A stretch of 64,000 bases of DNA, taken from positions 1 to 64,000 of the forward strand of contig JAJEHX010000010.1 of NCBI GenBank assembly GCA_022823465.1. Reading direction: 5' to 3'. A program made the position numbers and the translations under genes. Under the pieces are notes generated by a model, which had not been told where the DNA came from, did not search any database, and worked only from the letters and a program-made list of their open reading frames with translations. This document shows, one piece after another, positions 43,292 through 62,417 of the stretch (its first letter is position 1; every line of letters starts with the position of its first letter). This stretch comes from Candidatus Latescibacterota bacterium (GTDB lineage: Bacteria; JAAXHH01).

Positions 43292-46200
43292 TCACCTCTC
43301 ATCCCCCTCATCCCCCCACTCCCTCCAGCCCTGCAGCAACGGGAAATACAGCCCGAGGGTAATGGGCCGGGAATCCATGGTCCGGATCAGGCTCGCGTAG
43401 CGTTTCAACTGGTCGCGGTATCGCTCTCGTTCGTTGTCGAGGAATCCTTCCAGGTCTCCTCCTGTATGGGCGCTCGTTTTGTAATCGATGATCCAGCGCC
43501 TGCCGTTGTCCACGAAGGTCCGGTCCAGGATGGACTGCCGGAACCTGCCCTCTACCATCGTCGATAGCCTGAACTCCCTCTCATCGCTTTCGTGACGCGA
43601 CAGGATCCATCGGCCGCGCTTGTCGTCGATGGTATTCGTCAGGGCCGATACCGTACGGAAGACCGCCTCGTCGAGTTTGTCGCCGTCCAGTCCCTCCCGC
43701 CTGAGCGCGGTATGGATGATCTCCTCGCTGAAGTCCATGCGATCCGGTACACGCATCCGCCGGAGCATCTCGTGCACGACGATCCCCACGCGCCGCTGAA
43801 GTTCACTCGCCCATTCGAAGGTTGGATGGTGTGTCTCGGAGTCTCTAGTCTCGACCGGCTGATGCCGCGGATCCAGATCGATATCTTCGGGCAGGGGCAG
43901 GGGATTCCAGTCCGCGGGCAGGCGCCTGAGCGGGACGCCGCGGAGCTTTTCGTCTACTGCATCGTCTTCTTCCTCATGCTCTGATTGATCCGTTTGATGC
44001 TCCGTCTCTCTGCGCGCGTTCCACGCCGCCTCGAATTCCGGTTCGATCGTGTTCCATACTTCCGCTAATAAAGTACGGGGATCGGGGGCCTTTATGGACT
44101 CATCATCGGAATCCAGGTTGGTGTGTCCCAGCAGATGCAGGCACTTACGGGCCCGCGTCGTCGCCACGTACAGAAGGCGGGTTCGTTCATGCGCCCGTTT
44201 CTTGGCGTTCATGCCCTGCAGACTCCCGTACAGGGGATCCCTGTCTCCGCCGACGCCGGGTATCGGCGCCAGCAGCAGGCGGGATTTATCGCCTTCCATG
44301 TACTCGCGCCACAACAGCAACTGCTGCTCTTCCGGTCGCGTGCGGCGGCCCAGGCCCGGTAGAATCACCGTGTCGAACTCCAGCCCCTTGGCCTTGTGGA
44401 TCGTCATCAACTGCAGGTTCGCGCTGGCTTCAACGTCGGCCCCCGCGAAAAGGCGGCTGACGTCTTCGGCGAACTTCCTCTCGTTCGGGATGCCCAAGCC
44501 GTCCTGCACTTTTTCCAGGAGATCCAGGTAGGCCGCGGCGTCTTCGAGCTCCGTCCTGTTCTCCAGGCAGGCCGGACCGCCCAGCGCGGTCCAGACGCCT
44601 TCCACCAGCCTGCGCAGGGGCAGCCTGCCCCGCTTCTCGAACGCGTCGCCGAGGACGGGAATCATGCGGCCAATGCGCGCCCGGCCGTCGGGAGACAGCC
44701 CTTCCTGCCGATCGGGGTCCCGAAGCAGATCCCAGACGGCCCGCGGGTTTTCGCCGCCGGCCAGCGCCTCGAGATCCGCGAGCGTGAGTCCGCACCATGG
44801 CGCCCGCAGGATCGACAGCCAGGCCAGGCGGTTGCCCGTGTGCACGAGGGCCTGGGTGAGCGCCACCAGGTCCTGCACCACCGGACGCTCGCCCAGAGCG
44901 TCGATCTCCACGGCGCGGAACTTCCTCCCGTTCCGGTGGAGTGCGGAGACGATACCGAAGAGGTGATTGCGGGCCAGGACCAGCACGGTGATGGTCTCCT
45001 CCGGCCACTTCGCATGGGTCTCGTCGATGATCTCGACGACACGTTCGGCCTCGGCTTCGTGATCCGCTCCCAGGAACGGATGTACGCGTACGGCACTGTC
45101 GGGATTTGTGTCCTTGAATGCCTCGGCGGGTTTGTACGTCACCGCTCCGGTGAGTACGTCCTCGGTGTCGGGGAACGCCTCGCCCAACGCGCCGTTCACC
45201 CATCCCACGATGGCCGGGAAGGAACGGAAATTGACCGACAGCGTGAGGGGGGTCAGTTCGATGGCGCCGATCCCGTTCTTCCGGGCCTGCAGGAAGAGTC
45301 CCACCTCCGCCTCGCGGAAGCCGTAGATCGACTGCATCGGATCGCCGACCAGGAACAGCGTCCGGCCATCTCCGGGCTGCCAGTCCCTGATGAGCCGGCA
45401 GAGCAGGTCATACTGGCTCTGGGACGTGTCTTGGAACTCGTCGATCAGCAGATGCCGGATCTGGCAGTCGAGCGCATGGGCCAGGTCGGTCGGCGCCGAG
45501 TCCGTCCCCAGGGCGGTTCGCGCTCCGATCGCGATCTCCGTGAAATCCACGCACCCTTCTTCCTGGAACACCCGCCGCAGTTGGTCGACGGCCAGCGGCA
45601 ACAGGAGCATCAGGGCGTTCAGGATTTCCCACTGTGTCTCCTCGAAACGCGGCAGGGGCAGGGAACGTAACGCGTGCAATGAAGCGATGGCGTCGTCGTC
45701 CAGTTCGATGTCGGCAAGCCGTGCTTTGGCGTCGCGTCCGGCAGCGTCTGCGGGAAATCCCTGTCTCTTCGTGACACTCTTTCGCCTTGACCCCTGCGCG
45801 GTAAGGAACATCTCGGCGAGTCCCAGCCAGGCAGGCAGCGAATCTGCCGAGGCATCGGGGAAGGACTGGAGATTGAAACAGGTGTCCAGGGCGGTCGTCT
45901 GGCCGGTCGTCTGGCCGTCTGCAAGGATTTCGTTCCGAAGATTACCGGCCGCGAAGCGGGCGAGTTCCACGGCCTCTGCACGGTACCCCGCGGGGAATGC
46001 CGCATCGGCCGCCTGCAAAGCGCCTTCGACAACCCGCCGGATCGTAGCCTCTAGTTCGGCCCGCAGCGCGTCGGGGTTGGGTGCCGGGTCCGGGTTGGGC
46101 ACCTTATCTGGCCCGGGCGCTGTTACGGACCCAGGTGCCGGATCGGGCCCGGGCGCCCTCTCACCGGCCACATGCCGCATCCACTGGTCCCGGCTCCCCA

Positions 46201-46792
46201 GCATGATGCTCAACAACCGCTCGATCCTTCCGACGTAATTGTCCAGGTGCGCCAGCAGTTTGGACAGCGCTTCAGACACATTGTCGGGCGTTTCCTCCGT
46301 ATCCAGGGAGGCAACCGTCAGGCGGGCCGCGCGGTCATACAGATACCCGGCATCGTCGATGGGCTGCCGCGCCGCGCCCATGCGGGAAACCCAGGGCATC
46401 TGCCGGACCAGCATGGCGCAAAGGGAGTCGATGGTCTGGATCCGAAGACGCGACGGGTGTTCGGCCAGGTGCCAGTTCAACCTGTTGTTTCGTTCCAGGG
46501 CGTCCCGGGCGATCTGCCAGGTGTGCTTTTCATGGGGGGTCGAGGGCTGTGACCCGGCGGCGCGCTGCAGGGCGGCGATGATCCGGTGGCGCATTTCGGC
46601 GGCCGCCTTTCGCGTAAAGGTAATGGCGACGACGGCCTCGGGCCGGTCCACCCGGGCAAGCAGGGTCAGGAACCGCCGGATCAGCAACTCGGTCTTCCCG
46701 GACCCCGCGGGCGCCTGCACGATGAAGGACCGGGTGGGGTCGAGCGCCCGCAGACGCTGTTCCCAGTCCGGCATGAGGTCAGTCATCGCCAT
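43292..46792 (-). CDS. AddA-like helicase-nuclease
   Basis: A 1166-residue UvrD-like superfamily 1 helicase with a C-terminal RecB-type nuclease. Walker A APAGSGKTELL near residue 27; motif Ia ITFTRKAAAEMR; Walker B LLIDEFQDTSQSQ; motif VI LLYVATTRARKCLHLLG. The PD-(D/E)XK nuclease has RWIIDYKTSAH near residue 1090, with QLKRYASLI after it. Function: resects double-strand breaks and degrades linear DNA together with the product of the next gene. A Pro/Asp/Gly-rich repeated linker (about 220-240) sits between motifs. It overlaps the upstream partner gene by 14 nt, so they are translationally coupled. Confidence 0.9.
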   Translation of the reverse strand: MAMTDLMPDWEQRLRALDPTRSFIVQAPAGSGKTELLIRRFLTLLARVDRPEAVVAITFTRKAAAEMRHRIIAALQRAAGSQPSTPHEKHTWQIARDALERNNRLNWHLAEHPSRLRIQTIDSLCAMLVRQMPWVSRMGAARQPIDDAGYLYDRAARLTVASLDTEETPDNVSEALSKLLAHLDNYVGRIERLLSIMLGSRDQWMRHVAGERAPGPDPAPGSVTAPGPDKVPNPDPAPNPDALRAELEATIRRVVEGALQAADAAFPAGYRAEAVELARFAAGNLRNEILADGQTTGQTTALDTCFNLQSFPDASADSLPAWLGLAEMFLTAQGSRRKSVTKRQGFPADAAGRDAKARLADIELDDDAIASLHALRSLPLPRFEETQWEILNALMLLLPLAVDQLRRVFQEEGCVDFTEIAIGARTALGTDSAPTDLAHALDCQIRHLLIDEFQDTSQSQYDLLCRLIRDWQPGDGRTLFLVGDPMQSIYGFREAEVGLFLQARKNGIGAIELTPLTLSVNFRSFPAIVGWVNGALGEAFPDTEDVLTGAVTYKPAEAFKDTNPDSAVRVHPFLGADHEAEAERVVEIIDETHAKWPEETITVLVLARNHLFGIVSALHRNGRKFRAVEIDALGERPVVQDLVALTQALVHTGNRLAWLSILRAPWCGLTLADLEALAGGENPRAVWDLLRDPDRQEGLSPDGRARIGRMIPVLGDAFEKRGRLPLRRLVEGVWTALGGPACLENRTELEDAAAYLDLLEKVQDGLGIPNERKFAEDVSRLFAGADVEASANLQLMTIHKAKGLEFDTVILPGLGRRTRPEEQQLLLWREYMEGDKSRLLLAPIPGVGGDRDPLYGSLQGMNAKKRAHERTRLLYVATTRARKCLHLLGHTNLDSDDESIKAPDPRTLLAEVWNTIEPEFEAAWNARRETEHQTDQSEHEEEDDAVDEKLRGVPLRRLPADWNPLPLPEDIDLDPRHQPVETRDSETHHPTFEWASELQRRVGIVVHEMLRRMRVPDRMDFSEEIIHTALRREGLDGDKLDEAVFRTVSALTNTIDDKRGRWILSRHESDEREFRLSTMVEGRFRQSILDRTFVDNGRRWIIDYKTSAHTGGDLEGFLDNERERYRDQLKRYASLIRTMDSRPITLGLYFPLLQGWREWGDEGDER

Positions 46793-49424
46793 CCTCCAGT
46801 TCGACGGTGCCCTGGCTTATTCGGCACAGGGACGGCAGCGCGCAATACCTGCAGGTCTGGTGCGGGTTCTTGGGATCGACCGCCGCCAGGCCCAATCTGT
46901 AGTCGCGGCCGAGCTTGTCCAGGACCTCTCCCCACGCTTCGATCGTGTCCGCCAGCGACGCCTCGTCGTCGGGCGCTTTGACACCGCGCCCGGGAACGAT
47001 TTCCGTGGACTTGGCCAGGCCCCGGAATTCCACTTTCCCGGCCGTAATCCTGCCGAAGACCACGCCCGCTACGTGATCGTCCGTGGCCACGGCATAGATG
47101 GGCAATTGGGGCTCATCCGGCCGGGGTCCCTCCCAGCCGGACGGACTGCACGCCCCCGTCTTGTAGTCGATAATGACGATTTCCTCGTTCTCGAGGCGGT
47201 CCACCCGGTCGGCCCGGATGCTCACCTCGATGCCGCCCACCGTGGCGCGTTGCCACTTCTCCTGCTCGAGCACCGTGAAGGGCGATCGCTCCATTTCCAG
47301 TTGCAACCAGTTCCCGATGATGCCTTCGAGCCGGGCCTGCTCGATTTCAACGAAACGGGGATTGCGTAGCGCCCGGTCGCCCAGTTGATTCAGGATCTCG
47401 GTACTGACGCGCAAGCGCACGAGGATCTCCAGTTCGTCCTCCGTCTGGGAAAGCAGCCCGTCGTGCGATTGCAGTTGTTCCCACACGCGCTCGAGAATGC
47501 GGTGAACCAGGTTCCCCCGGTCTAGCGCGTCCAGTCCCGGCGCCGCCTCGTCCGGCGCCCTGGCGCCAAGACGCAGTTCGGCAAAGGCCTTGAAGGGACA
47601 GGCCGCCTGGAGCGTGAACAGGTAGGTCCCGCCGGTAAGCGCCGCATCGCCGCACGGCGGGCCGCGATGGTCGTGTAGGGTCTCCACGCTGGCAGCGTCC
47701 TGGAGCTGTTCCGCGTAACCGGGCGACGCGAGGAGTCCCAGGTCGGCGACAGACTTTTCCGGCAACGAAATGAAAAGGGGACTGACCCTGAGATCCGCAT
47801 CCTCTTCCCGCTCGGGATAGCTGACGACAATCGACGGCGCGCTCGAAAGCAGGCGGCCGGTGAGCATACGGTGATAGTCCAGTTCCCGCGCCGGGGACGA
47901 CCCGGGCAGCTCGAAACGGCGCTGCAGGCGAAGGGGAAGGAACGGATCGGGCCGGCGGACCGCCGGCCAGGCGCCGTCGTGCATGCCCATGATCCAGAGC
48001 CTGTCGAAATGGAGGCCGGCGGTTTCAAGCAGGCCCAGAACCTGGACCGGCGCGCGCGCCGACTCCGGTTGAAACAGCCGGGATGACGCGAGGTCTCGCA
48101 GGATGCCTGTCGCCGCACCGAGTGGAACGGGCCCCGAGACGCTATCCAGTTTCGAGAGTTCGGCAAGCAACTCTCTCCAGACTTCCAGGGTCTGGTACTC
48201 GATACTGTCGAGTGCCCGGTCGCCCGGCCATCCGAGGTCCCCGAGATAATCCGAGAGGACCGGCGCCCAGTCGCTCGGCATGCGCGGGGCCTGCAGGGTC
48301 CTGTACCGGTCCGTCCACGGCCCGAAGCGGGCGACAAGTTCGGGACAGTGGTGGGCGGTGTCCTCATTTCGTGCGAGGCCGATGATGTCCCACAGGGAAA
48401 CATGGGTCTGTCGCCGAGATCGCAGGGTTACGTCCAGCAGGGCGCGGCTCGTCATCTCCGCCTCGGAACCGTGCAGGAACGGCGATCGCAATATCCGGCT
48501 GGCCAGCTCGATCGGGATGTCCAGGGGATCCGTCTCCAGGATCAGGAACGCCGTATTGACAAGCGGGTATTCGTCGGCGGGAAGCCCGAGGGAGATGTTG
48601 AAGAGCCGATTGGGGTCCAATTCTGGCCGGAGCCGGGTGCGGGGATGGAACACCGCACCGAAGACGCGCTCGACCTCGCTGCGGTGCTGCTCCAGGTCGG
48701 GATCGACGACACCGATCTGAAACGCAGGGGACGAGGCGTCTGGCTCGTTTTCCAGGGTGCGGCGCGCCCATTCGGCGGCGGCGCGGATTTCTCGGCTGGC
48801 GTCAGGCAGGCCCACGCGTACGCCGTCGCCCACGGCATCCGGGTGTTCGCGATCCCGCACATCCACCCCGCGCCGGACCAGGGCGCCGGCAAGCCGTTGC
48901 TGGCCAGGCGTCCGTTCATGGAACCCCGCGAACTCGACTTCTTCGGGGACAGGGACTTCTCCTCCTTCGATGAGGCCCGCGAGCATCGAGGGCAGTTCCG
49001 CGTTCGAGAACCAGCCGTTCTCGCGGCAGCGACTTCGGAACTCCCGGGCCCACGCCTGGAAGGCCGCGGGATCCGCGGAATCCTTCCACTCCGGCGCGTC
49101 GAGCGACAGGTTCCAGTCGCAGACAAGGCCCCAGGATTTTAGTGCTGCCTCGGCCGTCGCGGGGACGTCCAGCAGCGTGTTGCCCGTCTGCGAACGAATG
49201 ATCTCTTCCCAGATCACCCGTTCTTCGGCCGGCCAGAGCAGCCGGTCTGATGTGGCTGCCCCGTGGTCGGAAAACAACCACGTATTCCACAGATCCTGCA
49301 GCCAGGCCGACAAGGGCAGGATATGCGCCGCCGGCCAGCAGGAAAGGCCCGCCGTCTGCTGTTCCTGGTCGTATTCCTGGCGGAGTTCGCGGGAAAGCCG
49401 GGTGGTCGCGGTGATGACGGTCAT
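46779..49424 (-). CDS. AddB-like nuclease with iron-sulfur motif
   Basis: An 881-residue protein. The C terminus is a PD-(D/E)XK nuclease (EIVIIDYKTGAC near 740) with the Cys set typical of AddB Fe-S nucleases: ACPFKAF near 605, then CRYCALPSLC at the end. The N-terminal two-thirds is helicase-like, but the Walker A position reads ITATTRLSRELRQEY, with no GxGKT. So it is an inactivated helicase plus active nuclease, as in the branch of AddB-like proteins found in many Proteobacteria. Partner: the AddA-like helicase downstream. They replace RecBCD. Confidence 0.85.
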   Translation of the reverse strand: MTVITATTRLSRELRQEYDQEQQTAGLSCWPAAHILPLSAWLQDLWNTWLFSDHGAATSDRLLWPAEERVIWEEIIRSQTGNTLLDVPATAEAALKSWGLVCDWNLSLDAPEWKDSADPAAFQAWAREFRSRCRENGWFSNAELPSMLAGLIEGGEVPVPEEVEFAGFHERTPGQQRLAGALVRRGVDVRDREHPDAVGDGVRVGLPDASREIRAAAEWARRTLENEPDASSPAFQIGVVDPDLEQHRSEVERVFGAVFHPRTRLRPELDPNRLFNISLGLPADEYPLVNTAFLILETDPLDIPIELASRILRSPFLHGSEAEMTSRALLDVTLRSRRQTHVSLWDIIGLARNEDTAHHCPELVARFGPWTDRYRTLQAPRMPSDWAPVLSDYLGDLGWPGDRALDSIEYQTLEVWRELLAELSKLDSVSGPVPLGAATGILRDLASSRLFQPESARAPVQVLGLLETAGLHFDRLWIMGMHDGAWPAVRRPDPFLPLRLQRRFELPGSSPARELDYHRMLTGRLLSSAPSIVVSYPEREEDADLRVSPLFISLPEKSVADLGLLASPGYAEQLQDAASVETLHDHRGPPCGDAALTGGTYLFTLQAACPFKAFAELRLGARAPDEAAPGLDALDRGNLVHRILERVWEQLQSHDGLLSQTEDELEILVRLRVSTEILNQLGDRALRNPRFVEIEQARLEGIIGNWLQLEMERSPFTVLEQEKWQRATVGGIEVSIRADRVDRLENEEIVIIDYKTGACSPSGWEGPRPDEPQLPIYAVATDDHVAGVVFGRITAGKVEFRGLAKSTEIVPGRGVKAPDDEASLADTIEAWGEVLDKLGRDYRLGLAAVDPKNPHQTCRYCALPSLCRISQGTVELEDGDD

Positions 49425-53465: not shown

Positions 53466-53885
53466 TTAAACGAACCATGGGTTGATTACTTCAATTCCAC
53501 AATGCTCAAAATCACCGACATTACGTGTTGCTACAGCCGCTCCATGGCATCTTGCGATTGCCGCCAACTGGCAATCAGCGAAGCTGATCGGCATCCCTAT
53601 AGCTCGTCTACCGGCAGCGATCACTGCGTGCAAACGCGCGGCATCGCTGTCAAAGGGAAGAATGCGTCGCTCGAAATCTTCCCGAAGCATATTCTCGACT
53701 TCAGATGCCAGTCTTTCACGCCGAAGACCCGCGGGCAGAATTGCAACGCCGAAGCGCAACTCGGCTTCAGTGACAGCCGAGAGGTATACATCTTCAGTGA
53801 TTTGCGCATCAAGCCAAGAAATCACGGAGGGATCAGGCGCGGGACGCGTCAGTTCTGATACGACATTAGTATCGAGAAGGATCAT
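53466..53885 (-). CDS. FitB-like PIN-domain toxin
   Basis: A 139-residue PIN toxin: MILLDTNVVSELTRP (Asp5), LSAVTEAELRFGV (Glu about 41), ISFADCQLAAIARCHG (Asp about 103), VATRNVGDFE (Asp about 124). These are the FitB/VapC active-site positions. It pairs with the FitA-like gene 11 nt upstream. Mg-dependent RNase held inactive until the antitoxin is lost. It lies inside the restriction locus, suggesting stabilisation of the island. Confidence 0.9.
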   Translation of the reverse strand: MILLDTNVVSELTRPAPDPSVISWLDAQITEDVYLSAVTEAELRFGVAILPAGLRRERLASEVENMLREDFERRILPFDSDAARLHAVIAAGRRAIGMPISFADCQLAAIARCHGAAVATRNVGDFEHCGIEVINPWFV

Positions 53886-53896
53886 TCAGGAGGAAC

Positions 53897-54139
53897 TCAA
53901 CCTAATTCCGGTGGATCGCGCATCGGCTCACGGGGGGGTATGTCAAGCTCAACACCGCCCAAGGGCTCAAAACGAGCGCGTATGGACTGTGCCAATTTCA
54001 TACGAGGGTTGTTAATGGCCAGTGCTACTCGAAGGATTACCCGGACTTCCTCCTCCATTGAGTGACCATGCTCGGCTGCTTGGATGCGCAGTCTCTGCTT
54101 TATCTCGTCACTAAGATTTCGAATAGTCATACTAGCCAT
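53897..54139 (-). CDS. FitA-like ribbon-helix-helix antitoxin
   Basis: An 80-residue antitoxin. The N-terminal ribbon-helix-helix (MASMTIRNLSDEIKQRLRIQAAEHGHSMEEEVRVIL) is the FitA signature. The C-terminal tail (PLGGVELDIPPREP) is what wraps the toxin. It is expected to repress its own promoter through the palindrome directly upstream. The toxin gene follows after 11 nt. Confidence 0.9.
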   Translation of the reverse strand: MASMTIRNLSDEIKQRLRIQAAEHGHSMEEEVRVILRVALAINNPRMKLAQSIRARFEPLGGVELDIPPREPMRDPPELG

Positions 54140-54165
54140 TTGGTATTTCCTTTTCGGTTGTATGC

Positions 54166-54194
54166 AATATAGCTAATGATATCATTGATGTCAA
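54166..54194 (-). promoter_or_regulatory. Promoter and operator of fitAB
   Basis: Minus-strand TTGACA, exactly 17 nt, TATATT. The spacer contains a perfect 12-bp palindrome AATGATATCATT (54175-54186), ideally placed for repression by FitAB. The region 54140-54388 is otherwise AT-rich and has no gene. Confidence 0.8.
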
Positions 54195-54388
54195 TGAAAT
54201 CATATTCTACTTGTATCATTAGTTTTGTAAGAACTACCTACTCCATTTCGGTCCTAGGATTCATTTACATTCGATTGGAGTCGGGTATGGATCAAAGCCG
54301 ATTTCAAGTACGCTGATAAATCAAATTCTACATCTAGACTGCAAGCAGGTGTTTACGCATACCAGGTTGTGACCGACACTTGGTTCAT

Positions 54389-54886
54389 TCATCGGTTTTC
54401 GGACTGTTGATCTATGGTTCTAGATAGTTGGGTTTGATTCCATGGCACAACAGGGATCTTGTTGTCTGAGATTGCCTTTGGAATACGATTGGGCGGGGAG
54501 TCACCTTTGTGCATTGCTACGACACCTTTCCCCATGGACAGACTCTCACGTATTTCCCAGTCTACCCATTTACTGTTTGCGGTTTTCTCAGTTAGATAAA
54601 CGACGGTAACTGAGGACTGACGTATACGTTCTCGTATGCCTCGTTTTATATATTGAGCGTCTTTACTATCGAACGGTTTTTTCAACGAGAAGTCGTTGAA
54701 TTCTAGGTTGCTGTTTTCGTTTTTAGCCTGACCACGAACTAGGTTGACTTCATCTATATCATCGGAATCGAAGGCAATGTAGATGTTACGTTTTCCTTCG
54801 CCTTCTTTTAGTGACTGTTTGGCACGTTGCTGAGCTTTTTGATATTCACTATAAGTCATACCACTTCCACCTCCACTGCCCGCCAT
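54389..54886 (-). CDS. ThsB-like (MTH538-type) TIR-domain protein
   Basis: A 165-residue protein. Residues 1-10 are a Gly/Ser tail (MAGSGGGSGM), 11-30 a predicted charged helix, and 33-160 a TIR-like fold of the MTH538/DUF1863 type. Strand 1 is NIYIAFDSDD; the helix NSKWVDWEIRESLSMGKG is very like the catalytic region of SARM1 (WVHKEI), placing the NADase Glu at residue 111. Thoeris ThsB proteins of this family make cyclic-ADP-ribose-type signals. Start: ATG 2 nt after the QueC-like stop, with GGAGG 5 nt upstream, so the Gly tail is really translated. Last gene of the five-gene operon. Confidence 0.8.
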   Translation of the reverse strand: MAGSGGGSGMTYSEYQKAQQRAKQSLKEGEGKRNIYIAFDSDDIDEVNLVRGQAKNENSNLEFNDFSLKKPFDSKDAQYIKRGIRERIRQSSVTVVYLTEKTANSKWVDWEIRESLSMGKGVVAMHKGDSPPNRIPKAISDNKIPVVPWNQTQLSRTIDQQSENR

Positions 54887-54888
54887 TA

Positions 54889-55485
54889 CTACCTCCAGTT
54901 CTTTGCGTTAGCGATCTCAACGCATGCTATACATTCACCACAAGGTTCATCATTTCCAGAATGACATGAATATGCCTGTGTTATACCTCGTTCACTGGCC
55001 ATCTCTAGTATATCTTTTTTGGAGAATTCGAAAAGTGGTGTAAGTACACGTATCCGCCTCTGCATCGCCAACTCGATCATTCTCTCACTTTCTTCCACGA
55101 ATTCCTTGGTCTGATCTGGAAATAGATGATCGACTGGATTCAAAAGTCCAAGTGCTACGCTACCGGCGTGAGTCTGGCAAGCATAGGCTGCTCCAGCAAG
55201 CACAAATAAGAGATTACGACCCGGTAAAAAAGCATCTTCGTTTATGCGTAGACTGCTGTCAGTAAGTCCGCTAGAAATTGACTTTCCAAAACCAGACATA
55301 TCCATATTTGTCACGGAAGGTAAATCGAACTGTTCATGTAATCTTTGACAAGCTGTCCATTCCTTTTTCGCTCCAAGTTGTCCATAATTGACAAAGAGGG
55401 GGAACAACTCGACACCTTCCTCGTGTGCCATCAAACTCATCAGTGTTGAGTCTAGTCCACCAGAGACTAGAGTTACTATCCCCAT
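54889..55485 (-). CDS. QueC-like enzyme (Cap9/QatC-type)
   Basis: A 198-residue member of the QueC family, shorter than housekeeping QueC (about 220-230). PP-loop SGGLDST at residues 8-14 binds ATP; PGRNLLF at 88-94 is the conserved GRN motif; a Zn site is formed by Cys174, 182, 185 and 188 (SC, then CGECIAC). QueC turns carboxy-deazaguanine into preQ0 by adenylation. In type IV CBASS and Qat systems related enzymes act in immunity. No queD, queE or folE is nearby. Its start overlaps the OGG-like gene by 10 nt; its stop touches the TIR gene. Confidence 0.85.
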   Translation of the reverse strand: MGIVTLVSGGLDSTLMSLMAHEEGVELFPLFVNYGQLGAKKEWTACQRLHEQFDLPSVTNMDMSGFGKSISSGLTDSSLRINEDAFLPGRNLLFVLAGAAYACQTHAGSVALGLLNPVDHLFPDQTKEFVEESERMIELAMQRRIRVLTPLFEFSKKDILEMASERGITQAYSCHSGNDEPCGECIACVEIANAKNWR

Positions 55486-56165
55486 TTATCTGATTCCTCC
55501 CTTACTACTTTCATTACAACCCATACAGCTAAATCGAATCGATCTGGCGAGCATCCCAAAGAGTAGGAATGATTGATAAATGACTCTTCCAGTGATTCAT
55601 ACTTTCCCATTGACGATACCGACTTAAGTGGGGATTCCACATAACCGACCCAACTCAGATAAGTTAGAACATGTGTGTCCAATACCGCAATGGATTTGGT
55701 AAAACCTATGTTTCGTAGGAATAAGCTAGACTGCTTAGGTCCTAATCCAGCTACCTCAGTTGCTAATAGGCGTCTTGCACTTCGAACATCATTGGTATTG
55801 CGTAGATACTCCTTAATAGACCCTTTTGTTTTATATATGTGTTCTGCTGCCATCCTAATCTGATTGGCTTTACCGCGGACAAAAGGATATCCTGTAGAAA
55901 GAGCCGCGACTGTTTTTTGTTCAAGTTCATTAAACTCCGAGTCACTACGTGGACTTGAGAGCAAGTTTAGATCATACATTCTTTCTACAGCAGCAAATAC
56001 AGTTTCAATTCTCACTCGACTTCCAAGAATACAGTAAACAAGTTCGCTCCATAGGTCGTCTTCACTGATATCGTTCCATGGAACGGGCGGAATCCTATCC
56101 AGGATATGATACACATCTTTGATCGCATATTCGATAGCTGGAAGAGAATAGCTTTTCTTGGGCAC
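55476..56165 (-). CDS. OGG-like DNA glycosylase (Cap11-type)
   Basis: A 229-residue helix-hairpin-helix glycosylase of the Ogg2/archaeal type. SELVYCILGSRVRIETVFAAV opens the domain; the hairpin is AGLGPKQSSLFLRNIGF with the presumed Schiff-base Lys144; Asp163 is in AVLDTHVLTYL. Both catalytic residues are therefore kept. Housekeeping members remove 8-oxoguanine from DNA; here, beside TGT- and QueC-like genes, a deazaguanine-like base or a modified nucleotide may be the substrate. Starts 1 nt after the TGT-like stop and overlaps the QueC-like gene. Confidence 0.8.
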   Translation of the reverse strand: MPKKSYSLPAIEYAIKDVYHILDRIPPVPWNDISEDDLWSELVYCILGSRVRIETVFAAVERMYDLNLLSSPRSDSEFNELEQKTVAALSTGYPFVRGKANQIRMAAEHIYKTKGSIKEYLRNTNDVRSARRLLATEVAGLGPKQSSLFLRNIGFTKSIAVLDTHVLTYLSWVGYVESPLKSVSSMGKYESLEESFINHSYSLGCSPDRFDLAVWVVMKVVREESDKWG

Positions 56166-56166
56166 G

Positions 56167-57237
56167 CTATTTTAGCCCTTCACAGGCTTCAAGTAATAGA
56201 TCTACATGTTCTTTAGATGCGTATTGTTCCATCAATGATACAGGATCTCCATCGTGTATTGCCAGATGAAGATCTGCCATAAATCCACGATAGAATTCTA
56301 GATTGTGTGCCAATACTGACTGCAAATAGGGAAGTACGGGACATCGGCCCCACTCTGTCTGATGCCGAACTAAGTCCCACTGCTGGAAATGAAACAATCT
56401 CCCTGATTGATGATCAACAACTGTCTGACACCACTCAAGACCATCGAAGCTATCTGCGCCAGCCAAAGCGTAGGCAATAATCGAAAGCGGATTACCTGTG
56501 CCGAGCAGATGAAGAGGGCAATATACCCCCAATGTATCAAGCGCCTCGCGTATTTTCTTTACCGTCCGGGTCCGCTCGACAATGCCGTCTCCTAGCTCAC
56601 GTTCCGGGACGGCCAAGAGTAGTGGATAAAGTTGCTCCGCTGTCATGCGGGCGGCTTCCGGAAATAGTGCTGAGGCTCCATGGACTATCGGAGCCACGGT
56701 ACCTAGGGCGTGTTGCTGATCTCGCATGACATCGGCTACAACTTCTGCTGCAATAGAATCTGGCGTACATGACGGCCGACGGTTATCATAACAGAAACAG
56801 AGTTGGTATTCGCTAACACCAGCAACCTCGTGGAATCTATCGACAAGCCAGGTTTCGTCATTAAGCCAATAACCTTCGTAATTTCCGCTGTCCATGAGGA
56901 TTACAGAGCCACTTTTTCTGCATTCGTTTAATGCGGTATCCATGCATACGCGCTGATCGGCGGTACAGTTAGCGATGTCATAGGCGGATACTAAGAAGAG
57001 CGGGTGACCCAACGCGTTGAGTAGTTGTACATAGTCAACAGGATGCAGGTTTGTTTTGACGCTGGAGACTGATGGGAAAAAGCAGGGTATCGGAATGTTT
57101 GTCTGCGTGACGTAAATCTCGCGGCTTCGGCCTACCGTCATGTTAGATTTCCCAGTGGCGCTACCAGATCCAACGCTATTAGTAAGTGTATAACGTGAAT
57201 CTTTGATAGCAATGAAGTGAACGACAGAATCTACCAC
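56167..57237 (-). CDS. TGT-like protein (Cap10/DpdA-type)
   Basis: A 356-residue TGT-like barrel. LMDSGNYEGY (Asp116) corresponds to the DSGGFQ motif of tRNA-guanine transglycosylase, and HLLGTGNPLSIIAYALAGADSFDG (Asp262, 265) to the second catalytic Asp region. The Cys-x-Cys-x2-Cys zinc site of true TGTs is not seen, as in distant relatives such as DpdA. It may swap a base in nucleic acid, or act on a base-modified partner. Start is a GTG; the first 35 residues are not conserved with TGT and could be overlong. Second gene of the operon, 34 nt after the SLATT gene. Confidence 0.78.
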   Translation of the reverse strand: MVDSVVHFIAIKDSRYTLTNSVGSGSATGKSNMTVGRSREIYVTQTNIPIPCFFPSVSSVKTNLHPVDYVQLLNALGHPLFLVSAYDIANCTADQRVCMDTALNECRKSGSVILMDSGNYEGYWLNDETWLVDRFHEVAGVSEYQLCFCYDNRRPSCTPDSIAAEVVADVMRDQQHALGTVAPIVHGASALFPEAARMTAEQLYPLLLAVPERELGDGIVERTRTVKKIREALDTLGVYCPLHLLGTGNPLSIIAYALAGADSFDGLEWCQTVVDHQSGRLFHFQQWDLVRHQTEWGRCPVLPYLQSVLAHNLEFYRGFMADLHLAIHDGDPVSLMEQYASKEHVDLLLEACEGLK

Positions 57238-57271
57238 ACCATGGTGACCAATAGTTAATCGGGTTAGGTCG

Positions 57272-58201
57272 TCAGACTACTTCTCGACGTGCGCACCACA
57301 TGGTATGTTCGCGAGAAATAGTTTCCTCGACCTGTTCCACAAGTGTGAGAAGGTCGTTCTCTGTTGTAACATTTGAGAATATCGCTTCCTGATCCCCTAG
57401 TTCTTGAGCAGCAAGTGAGTAGGACTGTGCTAACTCTCCGTAGCGCTTCATCTTGCTCCACGCGATAGCTGAAGCAGCACAGGTCATTAGCACTGGTACG
57501 ATGTTTACAGGTAAGCTCTTGGAAGCAGCCCAGATGATCGCGAGGACTACAGCGAGAACCTGTAGTATTGTCACCGTAACGAACCAACAATCTTCTTTTC
57601 CAGCATTGAATCTGGAGTTTTCTGAATACCAGTTTTTTTGGTCGCGTAATCGTGCTTTTAGATACAGGTCCCGCCTTTCGTCCAACGATTTCTCACGTAT
57701 TTTATTCATAAAACTGGGAACGACCTGAGCATTTGCATTTAAGCTTTGGGCCAAGTCTTTTGAACTTGAAGGTCTCGCGTCTCGTATTCGTTGAAGTTGC
57801 TTAACAAAAGACTGGTTAGCATTACTGTCATCCATGAACGGCGTAGCCTTCATAATATACCGCCACGTAGCCGTCTTTGTGGACTCAGCAATGGCACGGC
57901 AGTCAAACCATACCCTGTCGTACCGACGTACACGAGATACCAAATTTAGAATGACACCAATTACAAGAATGATCGCCAAGACAATGTAAATCCACCTGTC
58001 AGATACATCGGGAACTATCGTCGCAAGCGCAGCACCAAAACTACCTAAGATAAGACAGGCGATATGAAACTTCTGACAACAGAGATAACGTTGTTGCGCT
58101 GAAAGTGAAGCTTGATTGGCGTTCTGGTAAAGAGCTGGAAAGTGCTCGTCCTGAATAGTGGTTGAAACCAGGGGGTTTTGATCTCGCATAGTATTGACCA
58201 T
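57272..58201 (-). CDS. DUF4231/SLATT membrane protein, likely effector
   Basis: A 309-residue protein with two pairs of membrane helices, at about 46-66 and 71-92, and 206-226 and 230-250. The first pair follows a helix ending QQRYLCCQKFH (DUF4231-like). The second follows WYSENSRFNAGKEDCW, typical of SLATT domains (SMODS and SLOG-associated 2TM effectors). SLATT proteins are predicted pore-forming effectors that respond to nucleotide signals. Start ATG of MVNTMRD chosen; an upstream TTG and a further ATG are alternatives. First gene of the operon, about 125 nt after the RloC-like gene, so a promoter may lie in that AT-rich gap. Confidence 0.75.
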   Translation of the reverse strand: MVNTMRDQNPLVSTTIQDEHFPALYQNANQASLSAQQRYLCCQKFHIACLILGSFGAALATIVPDVSDRWIYIVLAIILVIGVILNLVSRVRRYDRVWFDCRAIAESTKTATWRYIMKATPFMDDSNANQSFVKQLQRIRDARPSSSKDLAQSLNANAQVVPSFMNKIREKSLDERRDLYLKARLRDQKNWYSENSRFNAGKEDCWFVTVTILQVLAVVLAIIWAASKSLPVNIVPVLMTCAASAIAWSKMKRYGELAQSYSLAAQELGDQEAIFSNVTTENDLLTLVEQVEETISREHTMWCARREVV

Positions 58202-58327
58202 CGACAGACTCAAAGTCTAATGTTCTGTAAAAAAACTGATTACTCAAAACTGACTTTTACATTCGTATGTCTAAGCTGGGTCGCCTATCCGCACGCAGCG
58301 GGTAAATAGAATTTCATCATACGTTGG

Positions 58328-60916
58328 TCATACGACGTCCTGAGAGGGGCGCTTATTGAATTCTTCGCGCCATGCCTTCAGCGACTCCAAGTCCTCGCGC
58401 AGTTCTTTCTCATCAGGCAGAAAGATCGGCGCTTCCTGCGACTGACTGTGCTCGTAGCACGAATACTTGGTCATCAGATCATCTATCAACCTGCAATCTT
58501 CTCGATTGATACTTACAAGTGGTTTAAGTCTATTGTCGGTTGTGACGCTTCTTCGGTGGCGCCGTACGATTTGATTCAGGAGGTCATCTTCGACTGTTCG
58601 CTCCAGAAGTTTTCGAAAATCAGTGCAAATCGCTTGTGCTTGGATCCGGTAGGCACCGGCGCCATCAGTTTTGCCGGCCTTCTTCGCCTTGTCAAGGCGT
58701 GCCAATAGGATATTGTTGCCCGTCTTGGTGTTGACATTCCAGACAGCATCATCCGCTGGGTGGCCTGCGGTCCCGAAAAACGATTCAATACAGCGTTGTT
58801 GAAGATTTGTTCTCTTCCATTCTTCGCCAATCTTCTTTGCGACCTCCTCCATCGCACCATAAAGAGAAAGCCGGTGCGTGAACACAAGGACCTGACGATT
58901 CTGCGCCATTTGCGCAAGACGAGTCGCCACCTGCCACTCGAAGTCTTGATCCAGCGACGAGATCGGATCGTCGAAAATGAATGGTGCCGCGTGGGGCTTC
59001 TCTGCCACATCGGCTAAAAAAGCCGCGAGAGAGACGACGCGACGCTCTCCGTCGCTCAGAATCTTCTCGGGTGCGTTCTCTGTTGTCAGTTTGACTCCCT
59101 TCAGGCGAAGCCCATGGAGTGCTTGCCCTTTTATTGTTTGGGTTTTGATTAGCTCGACCTTGATTCGCGATGCACCCAGAAACTTGAGTTCCTGGTTGAA
59201 ACGATCCACGTACGCCTGTGTGATTACCTTCTCGGCGACACGATTAGCCTCAAGGGATATATTGCGTGAGTTCGCTAATTTCTCCCATTTTTCATACTTT
59301 CGTATAATCTTTAGACGAGCAATCTCGCGGTGGATTGCAGTAGCTTGCTGTGCTGTCCAGCGCAGAGCCTCCAGATTCAGCTTTTCTTGAATTGCCCTTT
59401 CCCGATCGAAGTTCTTCGTATCCTCATCATTTTGCAGTGCGTCGTGCTCCAACGATTCGGCACGGCATGCTATTTGGGTCAAAAGCTCATCTGGTGCCTT
59501 TATAGCGACAGCTTCTGCATCTGCCTCGTCATTTAGGAGATCATTGCGGGTCTTGCCCAATTTGGACCAAAAGGCTCCGATTTTCTCGGTCCAATCCTCC
59601 TCGGTCAATCCGGCAGCCTGACACTTTGTGCGGATTTCCTCGTCATTCCATTGTGTAGGCAGGCTCTCCAGCAATCCACTATACGCTTTTTCAGCCGACT
59701 TGGCTTCAGTCTCTACTGTACTTTGGACAAAAGCTTCAAATTCCTGCAATCGATGCTGTGCTTCTTGAGCCAATTCCTGATGACACAAAATGCACCGTGC
59801 ACCGTTCTCTGTAACAGGATACTCCCGTCCTGGATACGCCGTTTGCGAATATATGCGTGCGGCCTCCCATAGAGCGTTCCACGTTCCGGTCCCGATGCCA
59901 TCCAGTTCGGCACTACCCAATTTAGCGGCATCGGTAGCAATCTTGCGTTTGTGATGTGCATTCCTACGGGCATTCCGAAGAGATTCCACCTGTTGCGGTC
60001 CTACAGCGACTGCGGCGTTTTTTAACTGCACTCCGAGTTGGTCGAGTTGGCTCTTTGTTTTACGCTTTAAATGCGCGAGCTTTGCCGGGTCGTCCGCAGT
60101 TAGACGTTCAGTCAGTTTCTTGAGTTCTTCTTCTTTATCCTGGTCCCATTGTGTTAGACGCAGGATTTCTTGCTCGTCGAGATCGTGTCTCAATACAGCA
60201 TACACTTTACCAGCTTTAGTAGTCCGATATTCTGGTGGCAAATTGGGGAGTGTGCTGACCAGACGATTCCGTTCGTCTTGAAGTCTCGCTTTCACTTGGT
60301 CGCACACAGTTGCCAACGCCTCGAACAAAGTGACGGTCGGTGGCGTGTAGGAGATTGCTTTCTCTTGGCTGATATAAAAGGTGGCAGCATCAGCGTCGAA
60401 TACATCTACGGCTTGGAGGTCCTGTATCGGAGTGTCGTTTGCCAGCCATGTAGTCAATTGCTCGCTTCCCGCCAAACGGTAGCGAAACTGACATTGTTGC
60501 TTTTCAGGTCGAAATTCGAACACGTTGGCCTTGAGCTCTGTCGCTCGGGGTTTCCCACACGCTCGCTTGAGGATGCGAACGTAACCAGTTTTTCCAGAGC
60601 CATTGGGGCCATAGATTACAGAAAGATTTCCAGCTCCGAACTTGAGAGGACTTTGCGGACATAGATTCTCAATGCCGCAGATGTCTCCGATTTCCAAGAG
60701 GTGTACCTCGGTCGAAGATGCAGAGGTAGTTCCAATACCTTCGAATGTGCGGTGAGTGGTCACCTTTTGTCCGGATGTGGTCTTGAGACGCTCGGTGATG
60801 GCCTGGATGTCGCAATCCTCCAAGCTGCTCGAAGCGAGCAGCTTCTCGACCGCTTCCTGAAGCCAATCCTGTTGTTGGTGAAGCCAGGCACGAATCTCTT
60901 GTTCAATGTCAGACAT
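58328..60916 (-). CDS. RloC-like ATPase with zinc hook, probable anticodon nuclease
   Basis: An 862-residue SMC/Rad50-like ATPase. Walker A GPNGSGKT at 103-110; a long coiled coil interrupted by a zinc hook CILC at 375-378; ABC signature LSDGERR at about 620; Walker B FIFDDPISSLD at 647-657. The C terminus has R768-x3-E772 and a later His (His787 or His823), as in PrrC/RloC anticodon nucleases (Arg-x3-Glu with a distal His). RloC cuts tRNA in the anticodon loop when DNA is damaged or restriction is inhibited. It overlaps hsdS by 8 nt, the place where prrC and rloC guard genes are often found. Confidence 0.78.
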   Translation of the reverse strand: MSDIEQEIRAWLHQQQDWLQEAVEKLLASSSLEDCDIQAITERLKTTSGQKVTTHRTFEGIGTTSASSTEVHLLEIGDICGIENLCPQSPLKFGAGNLSVIYGPNGSGKTGYVRILKRACGKPRATELKANVFEFRPEKQQCQFRYRLAGSEQLTTWLANDTPIQDLQAVDVFDADAATFYISQEKAISYTPPTVTLFEALATVCDQVKARLQDERNRLVSTLPNLPPEYRTTKAGKVYAVLRHDLDEQEILRLTQWDQDKEEELKKLTERLTADDPAKLAHLKRKTKSQLDQLGVQLKNAAVAVGPQQVESLRNARRNAHHKRKIATDAAKLGSAELDGIGTGTWNALWEAARIYSQTAYPGREYPVTENGARCILCHQELAQEAQHRLQEFEAFVQSTVETEAKSAEKAYSGLLESLPTQWNDEEIRTKCQAAGLTEEDWTEKIGAFWSKLGKTRNDLLNDEADAEAVAIKAPDELLTQIACRAESLEHDALQNDEDTKNFDRERAIQEKLNLEALRWTAQQATAIHREIARLKIIRKYEKWEKLANSRNISLEANRVAEKVITQAYVDRFNQELKFLGASRIKVELIKTQTIKGQALHGLRLKGVKLTTENAPEKILSDGERRVVSLAAFLADVAEKPHAAPFIFDDPISSLDQDFEWQVATRLAQMAQNRQVLVFTHRLSLYGAMEEVAKKIGEEWKRTNLQQRCIESFFGTAGHPADDAVWNVNTKTGNNILLARLDKAKKAGKTDGAGAYRIQAQAICTDFRKLLERTVEDDLLNQIVRRHRRSVTTDNRLKPLVSINREDCRLIDDLMTKYSCYEHSQSQEAPIFLPDEKELREDLESLKAWREEFNKRPSQDVV

Positions 60917-62312
60917 TTGCAGCCCTCTCTGATTCGACCAATCGTACCCGGCCGGTGAGAAGCTGCTGGATCATGCCTTGTTTGATGGCACGCATCTTGT
61001 ATCGGCGATGTTCCAGCGCGGTGATCTCGTCGTCCATATCGGAGAGTATGGCGGCGATTGCATGCTGTTCCGTATGAGTAGGAATACGTAATGAAAGTGA
61101 TGCCACATCAGACTTACTGATTTCAAGAAAAGTTGAACCGATGGCCCGCTCTATCAGTTGCGGTTTAAGTGTCAAAAGTAGGTAATATAGAAACTCGTTC
61201 GACACATCGGTTTTACAGACGAGCGATTTGAAGCCTTGATTGGTGCATACTGGTGATACAGCGATTTTAATCTCCCCAATGGTTGCACGGCTGCACAGGA
61301 GAAGGGAGCCGGCAGGGAGCAGTCGTGCTGAGCAACTTACCAGCCCCTCTTCGGTGACACTCCGTTCTGTCGCGCGAAGGTACTTCCCAGGCATAGCTGT
61401 GATGTCGGTCGGCGTGCACCACGGAATCCGTCCGTTCCAATAAGCACTTACCTGAGTATTTGGCGTTGCTCCACTATATATCTCTGCGATATCTCCAAGT
61501 GTTGTTGTCTCCCACGCCCCGCTAAATCCCGGCAATCGTGTCATGCCAATGAGGAGTTGCTGCATGGCGGCCCGCTTGATGGCCTGTTTCTTGGCAATCA
61601 GGGTCTCCAACGCTGCGTGCAATCCATCTACGTCCGACAAAGCCTCGGCAATGTCGCGTTGTTCGGTTTCAGGTGGAACCGGTGCCGAATAGCGTGTGAC
61701 TTGAGGGGCTGTTAATTGAGGCACTCCTGTGCTTTCGATTGCAAATTGGACTCCATGATTGATGTAACTGGAGAAATACCTGGCATCCATCCTGATCTTT
61801 GGCTTCAACACAAGTAGCCTGCCAATCGCGACGAATGGCGTATCTCTATAAAACGCTACTCCCAAGGTGCCTCTCGCTGTGATAGTGATAGACCCCGTTC
61901 GGTTTTCTGCGTAGTCAGAGAATCCATAGAGACCTTCTTGCGAAAGACCGTTCGCAAATATGGGATATGGGTGACTATCGCTCTGTACGTCGCTGGATCT
62001 AGTTGAGTCAAAGTCGCCGCCAGCTGTTGACTCAAACAGGTCACCAATTTTCATTACATCCCAATCAGACGGTATCACCCCCACCTCAGTTCGCTTGTAA
62101 CCTGCCGGTACCTCCGACCTGTCTGCTGGAGTACCGTACGACGGTGCAGATACAGTCTGCGGGTGCGCAAAGGAAGGCAATGCGAGATCTCCTTCACCCA
62201 GGGCGTTAATCATTGTCTCTTGTCTCGTGTTCATAACATTCGCCTTGTCTCGAGAGACAGAAACGCGGCTCCGATAGTTGAGCAGGGGAAACCCCATTTT
62301 TTGCTCTGCCAT
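60909..62312 (-). CDS. hsdS: Type I restriction-modification specificity subunit HsdS
   Basis: DNA-recognition subunit with two target-recognition domains, each followed by a conserved helix: LSDVDGLHAALETLIAKKQ and LSDMDDEITALEHRRYKM, both ending in AIK-x-x-M-x-QQLL. The first domain starts at about the GVIPSDWDVMKIGDLFE motif, the second at GAWETTTLGDIAEI. The start is uncertain: the frame is open to a TTG at 62408, 9 nt after hsdM; the ATG given follows GGTGGA; an ATG at 62234 is also reasonable. The N-terminal 80-100 residues do not look like usual HsdS. Overlaps the RloC-like gene. Confidence 0.9.
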   Translation of the reverse strand: MAEQKMGFPLLNYRSRVSVSRDKANVMNTRQETMINALGEGDLALPSFAHPQTVSAPSYGTPADRSEVPAGYKRTEVGVIPSDWDVMKIGDLFESTAGGDFDSTRSSDVQSDSHPYPIFANGLSQEGLYGFSDYAENRTGSITITARGTLGVAFYRDTPFVAIGRLLVLKPKIRMDARYFSSYINHGVQFAIESTGVPQLTAPQVTRYSAPVPPETEQRDIAEALSDVDGLHAALETLIAKKQAIKRAAMQQLLIGMTRLPGFSGAWETTTLGDIAEIYSGATPNTQVSAYWNGRIPWCTPTDITAMPGKYLRATERSVTEEGLVSCSARLLPAGSLLLCSRATIGEIKIAVSPVCTNQGFKSLVCKTDVSNEFLYYLLLTLKPQLIERAIGSTFLEISKSDVASLSLRIPTHTEQHAIAAILSDMDDEITALEHRRYKMRAIKQGMIQQLLTGRVRLVESERAANV

Positions 62313-62417
62313 CACTGTTCCACCAATGTATAGGCCTTCAGATTGCCAACAAATGGTCGGTGATTCTATCGTGTTTTTTTCTGGATATACAGAAAGCCAA
62401 CAGTACAAAGACCTCTC

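Follow-up and report, generated by a model that had tools for sequence, protein, structure and literature searches.

A five-gene operon that probably couples a type IV CBASS-like protein-deazaguanylation cassette to a ThsB-like TIR protein in place of a CD-NTase

What would the protein-deazaguanylation cassette of type IV CBASS (cyclic oligonucleotide-based anti-phage signaling system) act on at a locus where a TIR protein stands in the place of the CD-NTase (cGAS/DncV-like nucleotidyltransferase)? This question is raised by an operon in a 64,000-nucleotide stretch of contig JAJEHX010000010.1 from a Candidatus Latescibacterota bacterium (the whole stretch is called the window below). The operon encodes, in the order of transcription, a SLATT membrane protein, a TGT-like protein, an OGG-like protein, a QueC-like enzyme and a ThsB-like TIR protein. 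The analyses reported here favor, with moderate confidence, an anti-phage operon that couples the type IV CBASS cassette to the TIR protein, and the TIR protein itself is the most likely target of the trio of TGT-like, OGG-like and QueC-like proteins.

The five open reading frames (ORFs) were confirmed on the minus strand at 54389-58213, all with intact frames, and are packed as one operon with intergenic gaps of 34, 1, -10 and 2 nt, as an earlier note on this DNA had described. That note had given 54389-58201 as the extent of the operon; 58201 is an ATG internal to the SLATT ORF, whose opening codon is a TTG at 58213. The start of the TGT-like gene (GTG at 57237 or ATG at about 57141) is doubtful, because residues 1-26 are predicted to be disordered and the nearest homologue (L012) begins opposite the internal ATG; the gap between the SLATT and TGT-like genes may then be about 130 nt and not 34.

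Profile searches assigned each of the five proteins to a family. The presumed effector (57272..58213, minus strand, starting at ATG 58201 or TTG 58213) consists of two SLATT units (SLATT_3, PF18184, 1.7e-31; SLATT_1, PF18181, 1.2e-30) with hydrophobic stretches at residues ~48-97 and ~207-252. It is followed on the same strand by the TGT-like protein (56167..57237; TGT Pfam family, 2.7e-7), the OGG-like protein of HhH-GPD fold (55476..56165; Ogg-HhH, PF22175, 2.7e-27), the QueC-like enzyme of 198 aa (54889..55485; PF06508, 1.5e-37) and the TIR protein (54389..54886; ThsB_TIR, PF08937, 2.3e-23, above the family cut-off). The PADLOC models called TGT and QueC, which we take to be those of type IV CBASS, matched the window proteins at 3.1e-24 and 9.8e-29. 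The ThsB-like identity proposed earlier for the TIR protein was further borne out by Foldseek, in which a Bacillus cereus TIR (8fz9) ranked first, followed by SARM1 and ThsB entries of the PDB. Trp110-Glu111 is invariant in 33 of 33 TIR proteins, and the Glu aligns with those of ThsB and of a Bacillus TIR.

Both sequence and structure comparison concluded that the TGT-like protein is nearest to Cap10. In the profile search Cap10 (9ntn) ranked first at 2.1e-12, with the next match at 0.0033, and the predicted model (pLDDT 89.7) aligned best with Cap10 in the NDG complex (Z 28.1 over 291 residues, 3.0 A; next Z 23.9). Asp116, Asp265 and the segment F264-D265-G266...W269 are invariant in 29 TGT-like proteins, and an FDGLxW motif is common to Cap10. 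The QueC-like enzyme retains SGGxDS, Gln36, Glu42, PxRN (Arg90-Asn91), PDQ and four Cys, all invariant in 26 such proteins. The OGG-like protein, which matches the archaeal OGG 3fhg (9.1e-12), has Lys144 and Asp163 invariant in 23 of 23 proteins; the former aligns with a Lys of 3fhf and the latter with an Asp of 3fhg and 3fhf, residues that are presumably catalytic. We take Cap11 of type IV CBASS to be OGG-like as well.

The gene order TGT-OGG-QueC-TIR repeats in dozens of distant genomes, which indicates that the operon is more than a chance assembly; the cassette was found in genomes assigned to many phyla and also on conjugative plasmids. A TIR alignment was seeded from the distant genome G086 and rhizobial plasmids, and a peptide-pattern scan of 84,980 species genomes yielded 44 loci. 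Loci were counted if they lay outside the window, had a QueC-like gene directly before the TIR gene, and had a legible TIR start. The resulting 43 loci comprise four plasmid loci, L012, 33 of the 44 scan loci, L068-L071 and L092, and they form 36 clusters at 90% TIR identity and 21 at 70%. Left out from the scan were two loci with a cut 5' end (L017, L043), one with a broken TIR frame in which MGG is still present (L048), and eight without QueC (L049-L056); also left out were three viral loci in which no QueC was seen (L057-L059), L093 (no QueC), L062 (same genome as L034) and nine of 14 plasmid records. L035 was counted because its start is legible even though its TIR frame is interrupted.

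By single-query BLAST, the TGT-like gene was present in 41 of the 43 loci, the fetched stretches of L030 and L047 being cut before this gene could show, and the OGG-like gene in 42. The earlier note had held that a trio never linked to TIR in other genomes would tell against its interpretation, and this survey found such linkage in dozens of other genomes. The PADLOC TGT model matched six of 398 sampled Pseudomonadota genomes: the seed genome, four with additional TIR-type loci, and L072, a weak match that by eye resembles a canonical TGT and was not counted as TIR-type; no CD-NTase-type locus was among these matches. At L020 (1723-4316) TGT, QueC and TIR genes were detected and no OGG-like gene, so the OGG-like part may be dispensable. 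The TIR frame is interrupted at L035 (4448-4970) and L048 (7855-8380), and the adjoining cassette genes were still detected there. A viral origin of the cassette was considered and rejected: the TGT-like protein had no relative in the viral contigs or phage records searched, and the TIR profile matched three viral contigs, one of which (L057) starts MGG at the contig edge.

The same loci bear on whether a CD-NTase had been overlooked. The earlier note saw none in the operon and reasoned that one just outside in homologous operons would undermine its view. A single-query BLAST detected no CD-NTase in any of the 43 loci, and the SMODS profile PF18144, which does detect a type IV CD-NTase, had no match in the whole genome of the window (98% complete). 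Of 35 genomes that carry homologous loci, 26 likewise had no match; in the other nine the match and the TIR gene lay on different contigs or 1.4 Mb apart, and adjacency across gaps between draft contigs lies beyond such searches. A hidden CD-NTase was disfavored on these grounds, and the TIR gene, which adjoins the QueC-like gene in all 43 loci, stands where the CD-NTase would, as had been proposed. That the operon is an ordinary type IV CBASS, with its CD-NTase elsewhere in the genome or lost, would agree with the match of its other parts to that system and with the SLATT gene that accompanies the true type IV locus L011 (the only one found when further such loci were searched for comparison), but given the profile results and the constant TIR-QueC adjacency it is very improbable.

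If no CD-NTase is present, the TIR protein itself might carry the tag. In the available text of PMC13279940 and PMC11996544, Cap9 joins 7-carboxy-7-deazaguanine to the N-terminal Gly (MGGS motif) of the CD-NTase and Cap10 binds the modified N-terminus; in 2025 this modification of proteins was reported for the CD-NTases of type IV CBASS, and it is proposed for QatB of qatABCD, which needs a similar MGTS start (PMC13279940). All 43 TIR proteins outside the window have an MGG motif (in one case with a GTG start) at a start codon that adjoins the stop of QueC. Under a rule that took the first start codon found from 12 nt ahead of the QueC stop onward, 38 of 42 proteins began M/VGG; in the remaining four (L020, L047, L070, L071) a different start codon, no more than 26 nt from that stop, gives MGG. 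The 43rd locus, from a later search of 345 genomes, has MGGGSGGGLF beside QueC. A second TIR relative newly found in that search lacks both QueC and MGG.

None of the 10 TIR relatives whose fetched stretch lacks QueC has the MGG start (L049, L050, L051, L053, L054, L055, two in L058, L059 and L093, of which L053-L055 are weak at about 40 bits; L052, with no start seen, and L056, weak with MGH and MSY starts, were left out). As background, 5 of 795 ORFs begin MGG and 52 begin MG, these being mechanical ORFs of the fetched loci and the window and not annotated genes. The tails also resemble those of CD-NTases: CdnD of 9ntn/9nto has GGSFGSGF, and the Pseudanabaena type IV CD-NTase starts MGGSGGGFF, to be compared with MGGSGGGFK in the TIR protein of L020. 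The MGG start with its QueC adjacency, taken with the Cap9 precedent, suggests that the base-tagged substrate here is most likely the TIR protein, in place of the CD-NTase, and for the family as a whole an N-terminal tag appears likely.

Several observations weigh against this interpretation. The QueC-like enzyme is equally close to Cap9 (9nto_B, 2.4e-13, 53.5 bits) and to QueC (2pg3, 2.6e-13, 53.4 bits), and it has FPDQ where both have YxDC. In favor of the interpretation, its Phe122 and Asp124 align with Tyr115 and Asp117 of Cap9, which stack on and read the base according to the available text of PMC13279940. SLATT was found in only 27 of the 43 fetched stretches and is therefore not the sole effector of the family. 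The window TIR protein starts MAGSGGGSG, with Ala at position 2, alone among the 44 proteins of the 43 loci and the window, and a TIR relative without QueC (L058) also starts MAG (MAGKKRV).

The first of these points would fit a trio whose product is a modified nucleic acid or a free deazaguanine, as with canonical QueC and TGT, with TIR and SLATT forming a separate Thoeris-like module and the Gly start of the TIR protein serving otherwise. The QueC-like enzyme keeps most motifs of canonical QueC, the TGT-like protein keeps both Asp (D116 and D265), and TIR-SLATT pairs without QueC exist (L049, L050, L058, L059). However, the MGG start follows QueC adjacency (43/43 with, 0/10 without), the closest relative of the TGT-like protein is a published binder of a tagged protein N-terminus as far as the available text goes, no CxCxxC motif of canonical TGT such as L072 was seen by eye, and the NCBIfam equivalog cut-offs for TGT and QueC were not reached by the TGT-like and QueC-like proteins, so that this explanation is unlikely. 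An ordinary tRNA-modification operon was likewise disfavored by the gene neighborhood and the likeness to Cap10.

The Ala at position 2 concerns the window copy in particular. Its Gly-rich tail, read from the DNA as MAGSGGGSGM (54857..54886, minus strand), is predicted to be disordered at residues 1-10, and no nearby upstream start would give MG. Either an N-terminal Ala is accepted or the acceptor has been lost. A copy that lost its acceptor would work, if at all, without tagging, or would be decaying; the uniqueness of Ala2 speaks for this, but all five frames are intact and the four enzymes retain their conserved residues, and Ala, like Gly, permits removal of Met1 and offers a primary amine. 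Loss of the acceptor with such consequences seems rather improbable, and the chance that the TIR protein of the window is itself tagged is judged to be about even.

Comparison with known systems sets the operon apart from each of them. With type IV CBASS it shares the QueC-like and TGT-like enzymes, the OGG-like protein and, in the family, a partner with an MGG(S) N-terminus encoded in the same operon; it differs in that this partner is a ThsB-like TIR protein, in the FPDQ motif, and in a TGT-like protein that is often fused to a second TIR domain. With Thoeris (ThsB and ThsA) it shares the TIR protein of the ThsB_TIR family and the aligned Glu, but the three enzymes and the MGG tail are additional, and Pfam searches detected no ThsA domain (SIR2-SLOG or macro type) in the five genes or the scanned flanking genes. 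By having no CD-NTase and no ThsA, the system falls outside type IV CBASS and Thoeris on one defining point each. The earlier proposal of a hybrid between the two stands insofar as a Cap9/Cap10/OGG-type trio accompanies TIR in the CD-NTase place; it missed how the trio relates to the TIR protein, whose family has the Gly N-terminus that is the mark of a deazaguanylation substrate.

In qatABCD, too, a QueC-family protein stands next to a partner that has a flexible tail and a Gly N-terminal motif (QatB, in the available text of PMC13279940). Here the QueC-like enzyme lacks the QatC extensions, the partner is a TIR protein, a TGT-like protein is present and there is no QatA or QatD, since neither the operon nor the flanking genes that were scanned showed a KAP NTPase or TatD domain. 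Searches of the literature for QueC, TGT, OGG, Cap9 or Cap10 together with TIR, SLATT or Thoeris found no description of this gene set, key papers lying outside the search so that priority is unproven; the available main text of a 2026 survey of the QueC family contains no whole-word TIR, TGT, OGG or SLATT. A plasmid of Moraxella osloensis (L076, 2775-6059) carries, one after the other, a PfkB gene, a QueC-family gene and a gene annotated as an anti-phage dGTPase, which looks like another defense context of this family.

In the favored model of a tagged TIR protein, Met1 would be removed from the TIR protein, after which the QueC-like enzyme would activate host-made 7-carboxy-7-deazaguanine with ATP and join it to the free N-terminus of the tail. 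Supply by the host is plausible, as the window genome has a canonical QueC and a QueD-family gene. The Cap10-like protein would bind the tagged tail and hold or present the TIR protein, which upon infection would act on NAD+ via its conserved Glu; a product derived from NAD would then open the two-unit SLATT protein, presumably as a membrane pore, and the infected cell would be stopped. For the OGG-like protein, with its glycosylase residues kept, candidate roles are removal of the tag or sensing of damaged or phage DNA.

The homologous loci fall into two architectures. The TGT-like protein bears an N-terminal TIR domain in 30 of the 43, which points to physical contact between TIR and the Cap10-like protein and suggests that TIR domains are brought into contact with each other when the tag is read. 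Of these 30 fused loci, 23 have a PfkB-like gene upstream and 28 have a gene similar to a TPR-S protein (PF20308) within the stretch, compared with 0 and 2 of the 13 loci without the fusion; in L007-L010 and other fused loci these genes are possible extra parts or sensors. The window operon belongs to the unfused class, in which SLATT was present in 10 of 11 loci with an unfused TGT-like gene. In the four loci with TIR-SLATT pairs named above, the ThsB-like TIR gene is directly followed by the SLATT gene, with no match to QueC, TGT or OGG and no MGG tail. Adjoining TIR and SLATT genes are known from firmicute phages, and SLATT has been predicted to act as an effector regulated by ADP-ribose derivatives (available text of PMC9503650), and the four pairs are perhaps a plain form of TIR-SLATT signaling.

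The deazaguanylation tag has so far been shown only for another class of immune enzyme. A TIR protein with the same acceptor motif would be a third, small substrate (~155-170 aa) that links two large branches of bacterial immunity. We lean slightly toward the broader idea that deazaguanylation of protein N-termini is a portable module of tag and reader, which moved from cyclic-nucleotide to NAD-based TIR signaling and in which a Cap9-like writer, together with a Cap10-like reader and a third, OGG-like protein, arms any signaling enzyme with an MGG tail; if this is true, the window copy extends the chemistry to an N-terminal alanine. With the TIR cassette, what the tag and the Cap10-like and OGG-like proteins are for becomes directly testable, and detection rules that require a CD-NTase would probably miss it.

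A role in defense is further suggested by the genomic position, which the earlier note had placed within a type I restriction locus and which proved to be a cargo slot. The operon sits between HsdS and an AAA_13 protein (58328..60916, minus strand; PADLOC PDC-S06) on one side and a FitAB-like toxin-antitoxin pair (53466..54139, minus strand; PF22513, PF01850) and HsdR on the other, these flanking genes being outside the system. Among 12 genomes of the genus compared, four besides that of the window share HsdR at 84-90% identity. The contig of one (L083) stops short of spanning the slot; in the remaining three (L084, L085, L086) the stretch from FitA to AAA/HsdS lacks the operon and holds a protein of 1226-1228 aa instead. 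These proteins are alike by eye, the one scanned (L085) matches PADLOC Upx at 7e-150, and the L084 slot has additional genes. The TGT-like gene was not found in the other 11 genus members searched, and among 143 genomes it occurred in just two, that of the window and G086. The differing slot contents of sister species and the missing TGT-like gene in genus members indicate that the operon is exchangeable cargo of a defense locus.

Set beside L084, L085 and L086, region 53466-62408 of the window is a type I restriction locus in which the slot from AAA/HsdS to FitAB varies in content. The G+C content is ~42-48% in the operon region versus 64-67% in the 44-49 kb stretch, and two long ORFs at 43292-49424 of the window resemble, by eye, an AddA/AddB-type helicase-nuclease pair.

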